A stretch of 64,000 bases of DNA from Gelatoporia subvermispora B (Eukaryota; Basidiomycota; Agaricomycetes; Polyporales; Gelatoporiaceae). Below, piece by piece: positions 8,846-19,589 of this stretch (position 1 is its first letter; the number at the start of each line of letters is the position of its first letter). The stretch is from contig KB445809.1 of NCBI GenBank assembly GCA_000320605.2, positions 1-64,000 on the forward strand, written 5' to 3'. Position numbers and translations under genes: made by a program. A model generated the notes under the pieces. It did no database searches and was not told the DNA's origin. It worked only from the letters and a program-made list of their open reading frames with translations.

Positions 8846-10504
8846 TTATGCAAGGATCTCCAACCTTTTGCAATTTTTTGAGGCTGTTCGAGTATATGCC
8901 CCGCTCCCGCTAAATATAATCAAGTTAGCCTGAAATGGTCGGGGAGAAATTGCGACTTTACACATACTATTCCAAATTACATCAATGAGAACATAATTCT
9001 CCCCGCTGAAAAAGTATACTTCGCCGTTGCGTAGGCTGGGAAGAACAGTATCCACCACGTTTCCAAATTCTGGGATAGTTGCCAGCGCAGAGAAGTGATG
9101 TATGGTCTTGATAGGCCCGAGAAGTCGAACGGCTGTGTTCTTTTGTCCCCCAAAAGAAACGGCGTTGAATTTAACGCGCATGCATTCATCTCCGCGGAAG
9201 AAGTACGCCTCACGATCATCTGTGAAGCTCGGGAGGACTGCATCGATACCGCGGTCGAACCCAGTTTGAGCTAGATCTGGCCATCGTCTGGCAATCGTCA
9301 TGGTATCCCCAACTATTCTGGGGATGCCATAGACATTGAGCAGAACTGTATTTTCCCTGCAGAAGAAATACGCCTGATCGCGATTGAACGGGTCCGGTAG
9401 AACAGCATCAATGTGCGTGAGCCCGGCGTCAAGCAGCTTCGGCCAAAGACTGCAAATGGCTCCAACACTCTTCTTCGCGAGTTCGTCTGCAAGAGTACCA
9501 TCGTGCTTGAATTTGAGGTCTATCTGAGCGCAGAATCCGTCGGAGAAGAAGTACACCTTTCCCGTGTCGTCGCCTTTCGAACGAAGCCAACAGGCACGGG
9601 GTATAGGTGCAACGTCCGGTCCAATGTATGCATCCGCCCAAGGATCCGGCTGCAGCTGGTAACATGCGATAGAGTCATCTTTGGCATCTGTGTAACGTGG
9701 TGGGATGCCCTTGTGGTTGGAGGATGTGTAGAGTAGCTGAGGATCGACAAGGTCAGGAAAGCGGGGAAGGTCAATGAGACGAGGGATGTTGCCGCAGTTC
9801 GTAGACGGATCAAAGCGTAGGTTCCTCCAGACGCGAGTGACATAGCCTGCTTTGTCATATTCGCGTGCACTCCGAATTAGTTCGCTTCGGATGCCGCCTG
9901 GGAAAACAATCTCCTGGTGATGTGCAGATAGCGAGATGCCGGTCCGAAAATTGAGAGTAAGCCCAACATCAATTCCTCCATGGGCAAAAATCTCGTATTC
10001 ATATAGCCCTTGTGGATTTGCGGGAATCCATCGCTGCATCTCCTGACTCAGAGGATCCTCGGCGTAGCGTGTGGCTGAGACAAACAGAGATGACATGTCC
10101 TTCTTTATAAAGCTGTAGAGGTCGAGATCTTCATCCTTCAACTCCCCGATCCCGAGTGGCTTTATTTTGGGTTTGAAGCCGTAGCGGAAAATGGCATGGG
10201 GATGACGGTCGTCCCAGCGCGAGAGCGGCTCGGCAGACACTTTTGTGCCTTTGCCTGGGAATGTGAAGACGTAGTTCGGGCGTATAACAACGTGTAACTT
10301 GCGGTCCATCTTCATTAGCTGAGCATTGATACGCTCGAAGATGATGCGAGAATCATGCGCAGTAGCCTTCCGAAGGCAATCCAGAGCTGCGTCCGGGAAG
10401 GAGATATCGTCGTTGATACTGCCAAACAACCTGATCACAATGGGTAACACTTGCTAGTATAGTTCGTACCTGAAGATGGAAGGAGAGCAAGCAGAGCCTG
10501 GCAT
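8846..10504 (-). CDS. ADP-ribosyltransferase (pierisin/Scabin-like) fused to hemopexin-type repeats
   Basis: This is the second member of the tandem pair and it keeps the catalytic signature. The ADP-ribosyltransferase region has SRWDDRHP with its arginine, the strand SSLFVSATR, YEIFAHGGIDVG, and HHQEIVFPGG with the glutamate directly before the IVFPGG motif, then SELIRSAREY. Hemopexin-like blades follow: VYFFSDGFC, IDAVLP with AYFFCRENT, IDAVLP with AYFFRGDEC, and VDTVLP with VYFFSGENY. The long open frame starts at 10450, but a better model begins at ATG 10504 with a short first exon to 10470 and a GT-AG intron at 10419-10469 (51 nt) that keeps phase. The predicted product is about 530 residues. 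NAD-dependent ADP-ribosylation of DNA or protein is known for the family; the target here is unknown. There is no clear secretion signal. Confidence 0.78.
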
Positions 10505-12642: not shown

Positions 12643-15600
12643 ATGGAGAGCACAAAGCTACGAGTCATCGTAGAGCTCCCTGCCCACGAAGGGCAGAGAG
12701 CTATGCGCCTCGCGATACCCGCTCCTTCCACCGAGAGAGTCCGTTATCTTGAAGCCGAGGTGGTGAAGCGTGGACGCCTCCATAGTAGCCATGCTGAAGG
12801 ATTACAACTCAGTCTTGCGGATGGTTCCCTCCTTTTCTCAGACGATGAAATAGGAGATGTCATTCGAGCCGACGACGTCTTACACACGCACTTTGGAGAT
12901 GATCAAGCAACTGCTGGCACAGGAGGAGCTACTCCTAGTGCTTCATCGCCCCATATCAGCTCGCAGAGCTCTTCAGACAACTCAAGCACATCTAGGAACC
13001 CTGTCTTACACTTGTCTAGCAACGATCATTCGCATGCGCATGAGCGGGATCAGAGGAGGGTCAAGATTTCACTCGTCACTGCAGAGTCAGCACGCAATGC
13101 TGGGCGTGATGAAATAGCGAAGAGCGAGGCCTTTGGAGGCAGCTCTGTGAGCGTGACGATGCCCATGGTATGTAGTACCCCTTGCCATATCGCACCTCTC
13201 GTGATGACAGATGATATTCTAGAGCGTCCTCAGGAGGGAGGCTGCACGCGTCCTAGGCTGGACCGAGAGTCTTGCATTTACCGAAGACATCCCCGCAAAC
13301 ACCCCTGGGCCCTGCCACAAGACATGCGCATGCATCACCGCAAACATAATCGTAACCCGTTAGTGCTTATGCTCCGGCATTAAACCCTTCAGAACACTGA
13401 TAGAACTCATTGTCGTCGATTAGGGGGCAGATTCGAGCAGCTTCACTGCTCCAGAGAGATCGACGGTAGTCCCTGTCAAGATTCATCTTGCCCTTATTCT
13501 CACGTGCCCCTCGGTCAGTGTGCATCTCGCGAATCCTGGCCAAGCAATGACAACTTGTTCATCAGGGTCTGGAAAATTGACTGATTGCCGAGCGATCTAG
13601 AGTGTAAAATTTGTACTGAGCTATTCGGTGCGTGCATGCATACGTGCATATATCTAGCTGTCAATGCTAACCTCACGCAGGTTTCCCGTGTGCAAAATGC
13701 CTTCAGAAAAGTGCGGACGGTGGCCCGTCTGCTCCCCAGTCACCACAGGAGATTACCCATTGTCCTTTGGTTCAGGTGAGGGCTATTTCGACATCCTCCC
13801 CGTGCTGTTATCAACGAATCGTCTAGAACGCCGGATGTAAACATATCTTTCACGCTCATTGCTACTTCGGCCGCGTAACGACGCTCCAGGGGTGCCCGGC
13901 AGGGTGCCCTACTAGCCGTATATTACCTGAAGCGGTTCCGTTTGGACACGATGGTGTGTCTGCTATTGATATTCGGACAACGTTCATCAGTGACAAGGTG
14001 GCACCGTCACTTCAGGCCCATACATCCTCGTCGCGCATTCGGGGTCTAAATTGGATCGGATTCCCCTTCCTGAACGATACAAGAGCCCTTTGGGATCGTT
14101 CACAACTCTTCCCGACGCCGAACGTAAGTTCCGTGCGATGCTTGGAATTTTAAAACTCGTAGTTGACCGCGTTTCAGTACTGGAAATCCTGCAATCTAGG
14201 TTACAGCGCCTCGGACCAGGGCTCACCGTCAGAATGGCGCGTATCGTAGAGCTTTGGCAAAACTAAGCTGATCGCTTAGGATCTGCGTCCGATGAGCAGT
14301 TTGGGAGGAAGAACACCGGGTACGTCGCTGCATCTACAAGTGTGCACCAATCTCACATGTTCCTAGGATGGTGTCGTTTCATCATGCAACCATAGTCTCG
14401 ATCTGCTGCCAGTCACGGCACCCCGAGCCGGACGGCATTATTCGCTTCCCTCTCAATGGGAGTCCACCGTCTACGGTTCCTCCAAGATATGAGCTTGATT
14501 CACACACATCATCATCGCCTATCTTTTGTGAAGCTCCGAATGGAACACTACATGACCTGGTGCCCGATGTAGATGTGTCAGATGGAAATGAGATCATTCT
14601 CTATGCTGTTAGAAGATCTTCCGGACACAAGCACACTACTGCAGGCCGCGTAGGCAAGGCTGCCTTGTACACGGCACACGACGATTGGGTGCGTACTGAG
14701 TATATCATATATCCTCTTGAGGTTACGTCTGACCTGGGCTGCTCCCCAGCATCCACAAATCAGGCAGACGGATCGCGGCATGGCTGCTTTCCTCTCGTCC
14801 CTCTATGTCGTTGTAAACTATATGGCGTACGTGGCGCATTGATTTTGGCAAACAGTATAGGGCTGAGTTGAGAACACGCTAGTGTGTCCTCAGAAGATGA
14901 TAAAGGCCCAAATATGCGGAACCGCATACTTCATCATCTCTTGGGCTTGACGAGATTCCCACCTGGTGAGTACAGACCGTAATGGCTCTCAGTCGAGTCA
15001 GGGCTCAGTCTCGCGCCTTCTTGGCGACAGGTGTTCGGGCACTATACATCCTCTCTCTGAACAAAAGTTTTCAACCCGAGGAGACGAGAGCCCTGAGTGA
15101 AACTATGTTCCATCTCTCTCAAGATATTGCGCAACCCGCGGTTGCCAAGGGCGATTCAAGCAGGGTCCTCGAAGCTTCTCGCATCGTTTTTGGGGTTCTC
15201 ATTGAGCGAACGAAAGGGCCATTCACGTTGCCAGATGCGCAGACGCGAGTATCAGCCACGAATCCCTTCAAGGAAACCAGTCTTGTGTGGTACGTATGCT
15301 TGTTTTTTCATGGCTGCGAACCTCATTGATCCCCGGGCGAAACAGTGGATTTACCGGAAAACCCTTGAATGATCCTATCATCTACAACAATACTGTTGTC
15401 GATCAGAGTGCGTTCGGAATCCGACAACTCGGTGGAGACCTCTACGATCCATCAGTCGTGATGACAACAGAGGCGGTCCCAGATGAACTTCCATTCATGA
15501 TACGACGGACCGACGGGCGAGTGTCGCAGCTTGTATATCTTGACAATTCCGTCATGGTCCCGCGACTCCTATCTCTACGACTCCAGCAAAGCATGCTGAA

Positions 15601-18600
15601 GGATGCGATTGAGATGGCTAACGTGCAGTTGTGTTTACATGCTCCGCTCAGTCTCCAACACAACGTGATAACACCGTCTCTGACACTCGATGACATTGGG
15701 TTGCATGCAATCTACATTTCTCGTGGTGGGCCTTGCGGTGCTCCCGGAGAAGACGTAATTGTACTGCGGCCGTGTCACGGAGGCGAAGTCGGCGTTGATG
15801 TCCATATAGTGAGTCTCTGTAGTGACTCGACTGTGGTCGTCGCTAATGACCTCGGACGATATAGGTAGCCATGCAGTTACAGCGTGTCCTCGAGCAGCGA
15901 TCTGGGTTCACGGGGTGCGACATAAATGCATTCGGCAGTTCCGAGACGGGGAGAACCCACACAGTAGATACTCGAGCAGTAGAAGAGGCTATTGGTGAGT
16001 TTGTCAAGAAGATTCCATATACTTCGACCAATGCATGCGCAGTCGTCGCATTGGATATCTTCCAGTCGATGGATGAAGACTTCGATCCTGAGGAAGAAAG
16101 TGAAGACAAAACGGATGTAACACCGGATGAACGAGCCGAGGAGGCTCTCTTGGCTCAGTTCCACGCGCGTTGCGTTCGCGTCGCTGATGCTACAGCAACA
16201 GGTAACATCTCTTCCTGCGTGGTACGGTGCTCGGCTAAGACTTGTATCCCTCCAGCTAAGCAATTTCTAGCTTCGCTCGACAGTTTGCCGAGCATCAGAC
16301 GCTATATCACGTATGACGAAGATGCAAATCGCGTCTGGTTCACTTTGAACAGGCGGAGAAGGCGCGCAGAGAACGCTCTGGCTCAGCTCCGTATGTTGTT
16401 CACTCGGCTGCACTGGCAGAATAGCCAGGGGCGAGGCAGTCGAAGAGATACACGGTTTGTGGTCTTCACAAATTCTCGGTTCCGTTGCTCAGTACCCGAT
16501 AGACTTGCAGATTGGGAAGACTTTGTCGCTGTTGCAGCTAGTGGAGAGTTGCAACACCTCGTAGATCATCTCCTCGAACTTGTGCAGGCAGACCGTAATC
16601 TGGCCACATCTAATGGGACTCCTCATGTAAGTCCATCTACGCCCGGATCCGTGCCATCGAGACACTAACCATCGTGATAACAGCGATTTCTTGATCCGCT
16701 CAGTGGCGAGATATTTCACAGCCCTGTGAAGGCCAATGACGGTATGCATGAATTCCCTAGACAATACAGTAATAAGGACCATTCCCCTAGGCTTTACGTA
16801 TGAGCGCGCTCGGATCCAAGCTTGGTGTGAGACGTTTGGGACGTCCCCCCTAAATCCCACAGTCATGCTCAGGTCGGATATGCCGCTGGTACCCGATCAA
16901 GGCCTTGAGCGGGAGATACAATCGTATCTCTCTGGACTAACCAGAGGAAGCTTCTACCCTCCAAGACCTTTGGTAGCGCGGGTCGGAAACTATACATATG
17001 TCGCTTTACCCAAGACAACATCCATCATGTCGATTCTGTTCGACATGTGGGCTTTCCGTAATGTCAGCCCCAGTGATACCCGGCTGTGGCACGGTTGGCG
17101 GTCCCTTTACATTGTCACTGTCTTGCTGATCAATTTTTTTATGACCATACAGGCCTTGTGGATTGCGGAGACAACAGATATCGTGGCGATGCGCTTCAGG
17201 CAGACAGGCTCCTATGCGGGCTTTGTGGACCCAATGACGTAACAATATCATCAAGACGGGGTCAAAGCTACAGTTTGAGCTCAGTCAAATTGGAAATGCG
17301 CCGTACGAACTTTTCTCGCCTGATATTGAGCGGCGTTCAACATTTGTGATGTGCTAGGTTGGTATTATATGCCTACAGCTATGGAACGATTACGCACTTC
17401 TTCGAAAACAATGAGCAGGTGCGTGAGATACAGGACAGTGATACAGGAGGCTGTTGACAATTTACCTTCAAAAGGCTGGATGTCGTGAAACAAGCTTTTG
17501 AGTCGTGAGCAAACACGTCATGACATTCCTCTTCGTGTCTTCAAGGGATTATCAATCTAGCTTTGTTGATAAACTGGAAGCATTTGACCATCCAATCGCT
17601 GTCGGTCAGTGGGTGTTTTTTTCTGCTCCGTCTTCATATTTAAGTATACTTGGGAAAAGGTCTGGTCACATTTGGTCGGCAGGTGACACAGGTTCAGGTA
17701 ATGAGACAATTCACAATGGAGCGATGGAGAAAATTGAGTCGAGATGTCTTCTAGGATGTCACTGTGCTCAAAGAACAGTTCCGTGAATCCATGAAGAACA
17801 TAAAGGTGTGATCGCACTCGTCATCTCATCCACTGTAGCATCTCATGCGCGCAGGCCGATGGTGACACTCCCCTTTACGACAGTATCGGAATCGCCCATT
17901 CTATGCTAACCAATTTCCGAAATGAAGTGCGTAGCTTAATCCTAAGGCAATAGTTGACGGACCTCTGATGACTAACAGCACCCACATGCTGCGCTGAGGA
18001 TCATCTGCTTGACTGATGGTGACAATGCTAATTCTACAGTACCTTATGAATTGGCTGGAGCTTTATTATCACAGGCCAAGACGTTGGGTCCGCATTGGGT
18101 GCGCACACTGTAGCAAAAAGACTGCAGAAATCTCGAGTGTTGCTCGACTCGATGGTCGTTCACTCTGAGCATGAGAGCCACATGCTCCATTCTATAGCTG
18201 TGGCCACTGGAGGATATTCGTTCATAGTGGAAAAAGTCAGCTCACTGAATTTCTGAGTAGCTTGAGAACGCTCTGAATATCGTGGAGTTAGAAACGATGC
18301 TCCGCTCGAGAGATCGGGTTGAACGTGTGCGTTCTCCCACATTCAAGCTGCACATTGAATAACATGCCACAATATAGCCCCCCAAACCTCTGGTTCGTAC
18401 TGTCACGAGTCTAAACCGCTATAGCGACGTGCAGAAATTCCCTGTAGGTACTCTCTACTTGTGATATGGACCCACCGATTCAATGTTCTTATAGCTGGAC
18501 GTTATCACATCTGATAACTGTCCTCCTCGCAAACCACATGCGGTAAGCACTATGCATCATTTCGTGGTCTGCGGCTGTGACCAGAACTCCCATAGCGTCT

Positions 18601-19589
18601 TGATGGTAAATTTCGATGTGCCGAGAGCGCAGCCTCGAGACCCTCAAACTCAGCAGCAAGCACTAGGCAGAGGCGTCTCATGCAAGAACTCCGAGATATT
18701 GTAAATTCACCTCATCGTGTGTTGCTCATTCACATTTGAATTGCAACTATTCTTAACCGGTCGTCATAGCCGCAGTTGACGTATATACCGACGATGACCT
18801 CGCATTCTGGAAGGTACGTCAAGCGCGACATGATTAGCAGACCTTAGCTCAAGCAGCCCCAGATTGTGATTGAGGCACCCCAGGGTGTGAGTGCTGGTGT
18901 ATTCGAACGGGTGGTAAGACTGATTGACAAATGGGTAGTCTCCGTATGAAGGCGGTACATTCCTCGCCTACATTGATTTTGGCGAGGAATACCCACAAGT
19001 CGCCCCTGAAGTGTGAGTGCAACGGAAGGCCATATGTCCGAGGTGCTTATCTAGTCTTGACGCAAGCCGATTTGTTACACCGATCTTGCACCCCAACATC
19101 AATCGGCACGGCAGAGTCTGTCATGCTGCGCTGGACAGGAGCTGGCTCGTTGATATGACTATGACGTGAGTCTGCAACAGTTTCATCGTCTACGCATGCC
19201 TGCTCCTGACTCCGTGTTCAGCATAATACTGCAGATAGTTTACGGTCTATTGTTAACACCCGATACAGATAACCTTGTTCGTCTTTTACCCGGTCTTGTC
19301 TCCGTAAGCCTTGATATTTACTTACATCATAGCTCGATCTGCATGCTACAATGGAGTATAATGACGATGGCGGTAAGCGAGCTGGTTCTCAAGGAGTAAT
19401 GGCGCTGAAACTCTCACAGGTCGACACGCTTTTAAGGCCCACGAAATGGTAAGAGCTGTACTCCTTCTCTAGCGAAGAGACTCTGGAACCCGTAATTAGG
19501 TGCAGAAACATGCTCTCAAGAGTCGCGTACAATGGCGTGAAGAGCTGCAAAGGGCTCAGGATGTGGATGATGAGAACGACGCTACGTGA
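12643..19589 (+). CDS. Multidomain ubiquitin-system protein: RING-like, U-box, vWA and E2 (UBC) domains in one chain
   Basis: More than 30 short exons join in phase into one protein of roughly 1,350-1,400 residues. Domain order: an N-terminal region of about 90 residues that may be ubiquitin-like (MESTKLRVIVELPAHEGQ ... LQLSLADGSLLFSDDEI), a Ser-rich linker, a RING-like Cys/His cluster, a long middle part of unknown fold with an acidic stretch, a U-box, a vWA domain and a C-terminal E2 domain. Early exons are 12643-13167, 13223-13351, 13424-13517, 13601-13627, 13681-13775, 13827-13953 and 14016-14227. Middle exons are 14750-14812, one ending at 15289, then 15346-15808, 15865-16201 and 16256-16626. 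Exons between about 14280 and 14992 could not be chosen uniquely. U-box proteins are E3 ligases and UBC domains carry thioester-bound ubiquitin, so the chain may hold E2 and E3 functions in cis. The start at 12643 is preferred because the upstream extension of the same frame (from 12448) looks non-coding. No frameshift or in-frame stop is needed in the resolved exons. Confidence 0.8.
13601..13907 (+). other. RING-like zinc-binding region of the multidomain ubiquitin gene
   Basis: Exons 13601-13627, 13681-13775 and 13827-13953 read in one frame through CKICTELFG, FPCAKC, then GCKHIFHAHCYF and GCPAGCP. The block C-x-H-x2-H-x2-C is the centre of a RING-H2 finger, and the flanking cysteine pairs have roughly RING order. 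The last pair is C-x3-C rather than the usual C-x2-C, and one linker is long, so this is called RING-like only. The 5' boundary of the first small exon (intron 13518-13600) is the least certain splice in this part. Confidence 0.55.
16684..16941 (+). other. U-box domain of the multidomain ubiquitin gene
   Basis: Exon 16684-16741 reads RFLDPLSGEIFHSPVKANDG. After a 49-nt intron, exon 16791-17093 continues with FTYERARIQAWC, GTSPLNPTVM and MPLVPDQGLEREIQSYL. This is the full U-box pattern: DP.SGEIF..PV, DG.TYER..I..W, SP..., L.PN..L...I. U-boxes recruit ubiquitin-charged E2 enzymes without zinc. Codon phase is kept over both junctions. Confidence 0.85.
17379..18226 (+). other. von Willebrand A domain of the multidomain ubiquitin gene
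   Basis: Small exons 17379-17418, 17475-17504, 17546-17604, 17660-17697, 17755-17805, 17855-17926, 17979-18087 and 18138-18226 join in phase. They give SRLDVVKQAFES, HPIAVGLVTFG, ADGDTPLYDSIGIA, LRIICLTDGDNANST, LLDSMVVHSE and HSIAVATGGYSF. The threonine (GDTPLYD) and aspartate (LTDGD) of the metal-ion site are present. The first motif, normally D-x-S-x-S before SRLD, reads TSSKTMSRLD without the leading aspartate, so metal binding may be impaired or that exon edge may be off. vWA domains bind protein partners. Confidence 0.8.
18665..19589 (+). other. E2 ubiquitin-conjugating (UBC) domain and C-terminus of the multidomain gene
   Basis: Exons 18596-18716, 18776-18813, 18863-18896, 18952-19012, 19067-19165, 19222-19276, 19333-19372, 19420-19448 and 19500-19589 join in phase to the TGA at 19587-19589. 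Helix 1 is RQRRLMQELRDIVNSPH, the core strands are DDLAFWKIVIEAPQG and GTFLAYIDFGEEYP, the HPN motif is TPILHPNINRHG, and the active-site cysteine lies in GRVCHAALDRSW. The tail continues with LQIVYGLLLTPDTDN and VQWREELQ. All E2 landmarks are present, so it should be able to form a ubiquitin thioester. This part is the best supported of the gene. Confidence 0.87.

Follow-up and report, generated by a model that had tools for sequence, protein, structure and literature searches.

To our knowledge, it is rare for one protein to be both E2 and E3, and none of the known E2/E3 hybrids has a U-box. BIRC6/BRUCE and UBE2O are large hybrid E2/E3 enzymes whose chain has a UBC domain and also acts as a ligase; UBE2O is further marked by CR1/CR2 and coiled-coil regions. 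E3 ligases of the RING-vWA and copine types, such as plant RGLG (OsRGLG6), combine a ligase domain with a vWA domain. This ligase domain is a RING rather than a U-box, there is no E2 domain, and we know of no interruption in an RGLG-type vWA. The vWA domains of Rpn10 and of the TFIIH subunit 4wfq, which we take to be Ssl1/p44, are continuous, and these chains contain neither a U-box nor a UBC domain. Here we analyze a gene from the first 64,000 nucleotides of contig KB445809.1 of the fungus Gelatoporia subvermispora B (assembly GCA_000320605.2), this whole stretch being the window. Its predicted product carries a RING-like cluster, a U-box, a vWA domain and a UBC domain, and the U-box sits inside the vWA domain.

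Like BIRC6/BRUCE and UBE2O, the Gelatoporia protein is very large and has a UBC domain together with predicted ligase parts. Unlike them, it carries a U-box, a RING-like cluster and a vWA domain. Neither a BIR repeat nor any other BIRC6 domain, which mark BIRC6/BRUCE beside the UBC, was found among Pfam families up to E = 1. The combination of a ligase domain with vWA is shared with the RGLG-type E3s, whereas the split of the vWA and the presence of U-box and UBC distinguish the chain from both Rpn10 and the TFIIH subunit. BIRC6/BRUCE and UBE2O are given as multidomain E2s in PMC11354881. According to PMC2964712, the fungal PARP clade 6A consists of multi-domain proteins ending in a UBCc domain with an active cysteine, and the BRUCE-like family is a further case of a multi-domain E2. 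The Gelatoporia protein, likewise fungal, multi-domain and with an E2 at its end, differs from clade 6A in having no PARP domain (Pfam scan) and in its other partner domains. The term "vwa" was not found in main-text passages of a survey of ubiquitin domain architectures (PMC4327156).

A preliminary description of the locus, made from the letters alone, knew of no described U-box-vWA-UBC protein. Indeed, no description of this combination was found in the open-licence literature searched, and one may exist elsewhere. However, databases already contain automatically named entries with these Pfam domains: LAESUDRAFT_814008, A0H81_00199, SCP_1005590 and JAAARDRAFT_37425 belong to the same family and are listed with vWA, U-box and UBC. 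No functional description of these public relatives was seen in the database listings.

A single gene and its relatives

To reconstruct the gene, tblastn matches to two fungal proteins were used to guide the splice model, and a few junctions were set by hand against relatives. The predicted reading frame starts with the ATG at 12643, and its stop codon ends at 19589, matching to the base the span given in the preliminary description; there are 1,608 codons and no internal stop. All 39 introns are GT-AG, with lengths of 34-75 nucleotides (median 54). Between 16684 and 19448 there are 21 of them, in agreement with the more than 20 in-phase introns reported earlier. Four places allow near-equal junction choices: the 34-nucleotide intron 18227-18260 within the last part of the vWA, which had to be assumed; the start of the exon at 13593, directly upstream of the RING cluster; the final intron, 19449-19499, which follows the UBC; and the insert ahead of the U-box, where an additional intron near 16454 is possible. 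All these options leave the matches to the metal-site strand, the U-box and the UBC unaltered.

Most splice models built without homology came to an end at 17242 or at 17061, or else read the region at about 17.1-17.4 kb wrongly. A frameshift in this region, with a vWA devoid of its metal-site strand, was considered and rejected, because the relatives show the correct splice sites (17094-17152 and 17303-17357) and a metal-site strand upstream.

Three protein searches against 5.77 billion sequences, with about 8,000 candidates scored in each, returned 13 relatives, together with a BIRC6 protein and one protein with BIRC6-type domains. The named fungal relatives come from Laetiporus sulphureus (P0001), Grifola frondosa (P0002), Sparassis crispa (P0004), Jaapia argillacea (P0005), Antrodiella citrinella (P0006) and Collybiopsis luxurians (P0007). 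P0003, P0008 and P0013 come from EukProt, the "tig" name of the last being, we presume, typical of the glaucophyte Cyanophora. P0009 comes from JGI and is also an MMETSP transcript, and P0010-P0012 have the source "lgn", P0011 also ENA. Thus the family occurs in mushrooms and in distantly related eukaryotes.

The provisional splice model, used as the query, matched two independently annotated fungal proteins with E = 0.0 (45% and 48% identity over 100% and 76% of the query, the former being P0001), and because of this the similarity is, judged from the sequences, not due to chance. The tblastn matches of P0001 run in order along the gene. Since the relatives are single proteins with U-box, vWA and UBC in one chain, they and the splice model together support a single gene predicted to encode the RING-like, U-box, vWA and UBC parts, as had been proposed; one of these relatives is transcript-derived.

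The UBC domain is present in all 13 relatives (in P0006 by listed domains only), and the U-box in 11, very distant ones included. The vWA exceeds the cut-off in ten; P0010 scores 26.2 against 27 and P0003 19.4 against 27, whereas P0006, judged by its listed domains only, has no vWA among them. Several relatives have additional domains. The C-terminal part of P0006 (PF15469 listed) is unrelated and may result from merged annotations, and the uracil-DNA glycosylase domain at the N-terminus of P0008 (PF03167, E 5.9e-17) may stem from a gene model that joins two genes. Ubiquitin-family domains (PF00240) occur in the same chain in P0009, P0010 and P0011, directly after the U-box in P0009 and just before it in P0011.

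Searching the Gelatoporia genome (37.7 Mb, 52 contigs) with P0001 revealed no second copy among the best candidates; four of the 15 matches fall outside the gene, each restricted to the UBC part. A U-box family search of the same genome gave two other U-box places and did not list the intron-split U-box of this gene, and therefore such scans can miss the family. Scans of bacterial, archaeal and viral contigs used UBC peptide patterns from alignment A1 (12 relatives, all but P0013, and not the Gelatoporia protein). The 40 pattern matches in bacterial and archaeal contigs and the 35 in viral contigs contained no confirmed relative, which is a weak negative because the scans were restricted to UBC patterns.

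The U-box lies inside the vWA domain

The order of domains is as follows: an N-terminal tail, an RBX1/APC11-like RING-H2 cluster, a conserved region, the first strand of vWA with the metal site, an insert with the U-box and an LWxGL module, the remainder of vWA, and the C-terminal E2 (UBC) domain (Table 1). The U-box and the UBC, earlier placed at 16684-16941 and 18665-19448, were recovered with slightly different borders, both above the Pfam cut-offs. The solved sequence nearest to the U-box is the plant U-box chain 1t1h (E 1.1e-4). The UBC has the E2 marks: the catalytic Cys and the HPN-type Asn are retained in all 14 aligned rows (the Gelatoporia protein and 13 relatives), with HCN instead of HPN in six of them. 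The vWA domain had been placed at 17379-18226. This is close to its remainder, which by itself exceeds the family cut-off; the first strand and the metal-site (MIDAS) motif, located upstream of the U-box, had been missed.

The alignment of 14 rows places the first strand and the metal-site motif upstream of the U-box. The motif DxSxS is found in 12 rows, the exceptions being the Gelatoporia protein and P0002, where it is DLRFS and where a gap in the gene model is possible. In alignment A1 there is no variation at D191 and S195, which precede the U-box, or at T577 and D609, which follow it. The spacing between the MIDAS motif and the RLDxVK helix is 324-580 residues in 12 rows (364 in Gelatoporia), decreasing to 94 in P0006 and to 26 in P0013. 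The latter has an uninterrupted vWA (a single Pfam match, 1181-1355) and carries its U-box (1590-1665) C-terminal of the UBC. The existence of an unsplit arrangement of these parts supports the view that the long stretch was inserted into a single domain. This arrangement was seen once, in a single gene model from a single source.

Joining the two vWA pieces, scored for four of the five pairs made (Gelatoporia, P0001, P0005 and P0009), increased the VWA_2 score by 7.3 bits in P0001, 8.7 in P0005 and 14.3 in P0009, but by just 1.1 in Gelatoporia, where the VWA score changed by -0.1 bit. Thus the sequence support for a joined vWA in the Gelatoporia protein taken alone is weak. A fold-comparison listing was filled by vWA matches, so the absence of other folds from it carries no meaning.

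Table 1. Features of the Gelatoporia gene and its predicted product (window coordinates)
Feature	Residues	Coordinates	Strand	Remarks
Whole gene	1-1608	12643..19589	+	40 exons, 1,608 residues; homology-guided splice model
RING-H2-like Cys/His cluster	254-323	13597..13910	+	resembles RBX1/APC11
Conserved region	330-835	13929..15957	+	no Pfam family up to E 1
Conserved block	540-650	14893-15346	+	contains FPPxVRALYIL; kept even in distant relatives
vWA first strand and MIDAS motif	846-857	15988..16071	+	AIVVALDIFQSM; interrupted by intron 15995-16042
Insert in vWA	858-1212	16072..17410	+	pre-U-box region, U-box, LWxGLxDxGDG module
U-box	1023-1091	16621..16933	+	PF04564, 36.8 bits, cut-off 21.4
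LWxGLxDxGDG module	1102-1160	16964..17199	+	conserved; follows the U-box
vWA remainder	1210-1364	17402..18281	+	PF00092, 35.3 bits, cut-off 23.8
UBC / E2	1444-1575	18674..19436	+	PF00179, 96.4 bits, cut-off 27
HPN motif		19089-19097	+	within UBC
Catalytic Cys codon	1523	19119-19121	+	within UBC

RING-like cluster and other conserved parts

The RING-like Cys/His cluster of the preliminary description could be located. However, it stays below the Pfam cut-offs (zf-rbx1, residues 255-319, 17.8 bits against 31; zf-ANAPC11, 11.3 against 25). In five hand-chosen rows (Gelatoporia, P0001, P0005, P0007, P0009) nine Cys and two His columns are invariant. The profile of these rows matches RBX1 with E 0.0013 (positions 2-61 of 72) and APC11 with E 0.078; the top match, above RBX1, is a short stretch of AMFR (E 0.00071). 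In the alignment of 14 rows the cluster is present in the same five and partial in P0006, and the gene models of P0002 and P0004 do not contain this region.

Two other parts are conserved. The block at 14893-15346 has 31-55% identity in the six fungal relatives and 19-26% in the remaining seven; like the rest of the conserved region around it, it has no Pfam match. In the LWxGLxDxGDG module the residues W, W, G, D and G are invariant in all ten aligned rows. A ubiquitin-like fold for this module was considered but had no support from profile comparison or from the search of solved sequences, and the module is left unnamed: hhalign against the ubiquitin pieces of three relatives gave no match (probability 0.1), and no solved sequence was significant (best E 0.54; a UHRF-type ubiquitin-like domain, E 0.92). 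An NCBIfam scan of four proteins gave nothing useful.

Elsewhere in the window, an open frame of 535 residues on the minus strand (8846-10453) encodes a Scabin-like domain (PF22596, E 3e-41), presumably an ADP-ribosyltransferase, and hemopexin repeats (PF00045, E 5.1e-7).

Possible function and alternative explanations

The protein is probably a large enzyme of the E2/E3 type, likely intracellular, that would bind a partner and ubiquitinate it by means of its own E2. Cys1523 of the C-terminal E2 would be charged by E1, a partner or substrate would be held by the vWA, possibly together with the conserved regions upstream, and the U-box and/or the RING would activate the ubiquitin-loaded E2 within one chain or across a dimer. 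The U-box would be carried by the metal-site loop of this vWA, and we propose that, because of this position, substrate binding and ubiquitin transfer may be mechanically coupled. A self-contained ligase with the vWA choosing its partners is a plausible reading.

Several observations weigh against this enzyme model. The E2 residues Met and Ser-Pro-Ala (SPA) contact RING and U-box partners. Among solved sequences the UBC is best matched by Ubc13 (E 4.6e-22), with further Ubc13/UBE2N and UBE2D chains next, and in the alignment with Ubc13 the Gelatoporia protein has Q at the Met position and L-V-D at S-P-A. The complete SPA occurs in none of the 14 rows; P0011 has S-P-D, P0003 and P0008 have T-P-N, and P0013 has T-P-D. 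The domain may be read as a specialized E2, predicted to be tied to the U-box or RING of its own chain, or to none. The U-box was not found in P0007 (Pfam scan) or among the listed domains of P0006, and both retain the UBC. No RING cluster can be seen in the alignment for P0003, P0008 and P0010-P0013, so the cluster is not shared by the whole family. The metal-site motif of the Gelatoporia protein is DIFQS (16054-16068, bases re-read), with Phe in place of the Ser of 12 of the 14 rows. T and D are kept, but the metal site is incomplete; membership in the vWA family does not require a full one. Finally, the structure model is poor as a whole (mean pLDDT 60.9, pTM 0.38) and uninformative about contact between U-box and E2.

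The incomplete SPA in every row and the UBCs that have no recognized U-box would also be expected if the E2 acted without the U-box, as in BIRC6 or UBE2O, with the U-box, RING and vWA serving as a scaffold, binding surfaces or recruiters of other E2s. The weakest matches of the P0003 query, a protein with BIRC6-type domains (E 5.2e-6) and a BIRC6 protein (E 1.8e-5), point the same way. However, the retention of the U-box in most relatives, even at the C-terminus in P0013, suggests that it matters alongside the UBC, and we consider such a hybrid the less likely reading, though a serious one. The Phe in the metal site and the assumed 34-nucleotide intron could mean that the family is real and the Gelatoporia copy is degenerating and partly non-functional. 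This is very unlikely given the uninterrupted frame through 1,608 codons and 39 introns, the retained catalytic Cys, and the identity to Laetiporus of 83% in the UBC and 59% in the vWA. The suspicion that two or more adjacent genes were fused by the splice model arises from the predicted nature of the gene structure and from the early ends of the models built without homology. It is hardly credible, as the annotated proteins of Laetiporus (1,613 residues; 50% identity over 1,565 positions) and Jaapia (1,573 residues; 43% over 1,526 positions) align along nearly the whole protein, P0009 has a transcript record, and the vWA domain itself spans the U-box.

The interest of the family lies in its nested design and its wide spread; the function itself we infer from the architecture. 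Its occurrence in distant eukaryotes points to an old function, one that the literature searched does not name. A stronger version of the enzyme model, in which these proteins would be ancient, undescribed single-chain ubiquitin machines where a ligand or metal at the vWA switches the U-box and E2 as one allosteric unit, appears unlikely. The nested arrangement predicts that a ligand at the vWA site can move the U-box, and a conserved chain of U-box, vWA and E2 would permit ubiquitin transfer to be studied without guessing the E2-E3 pair.
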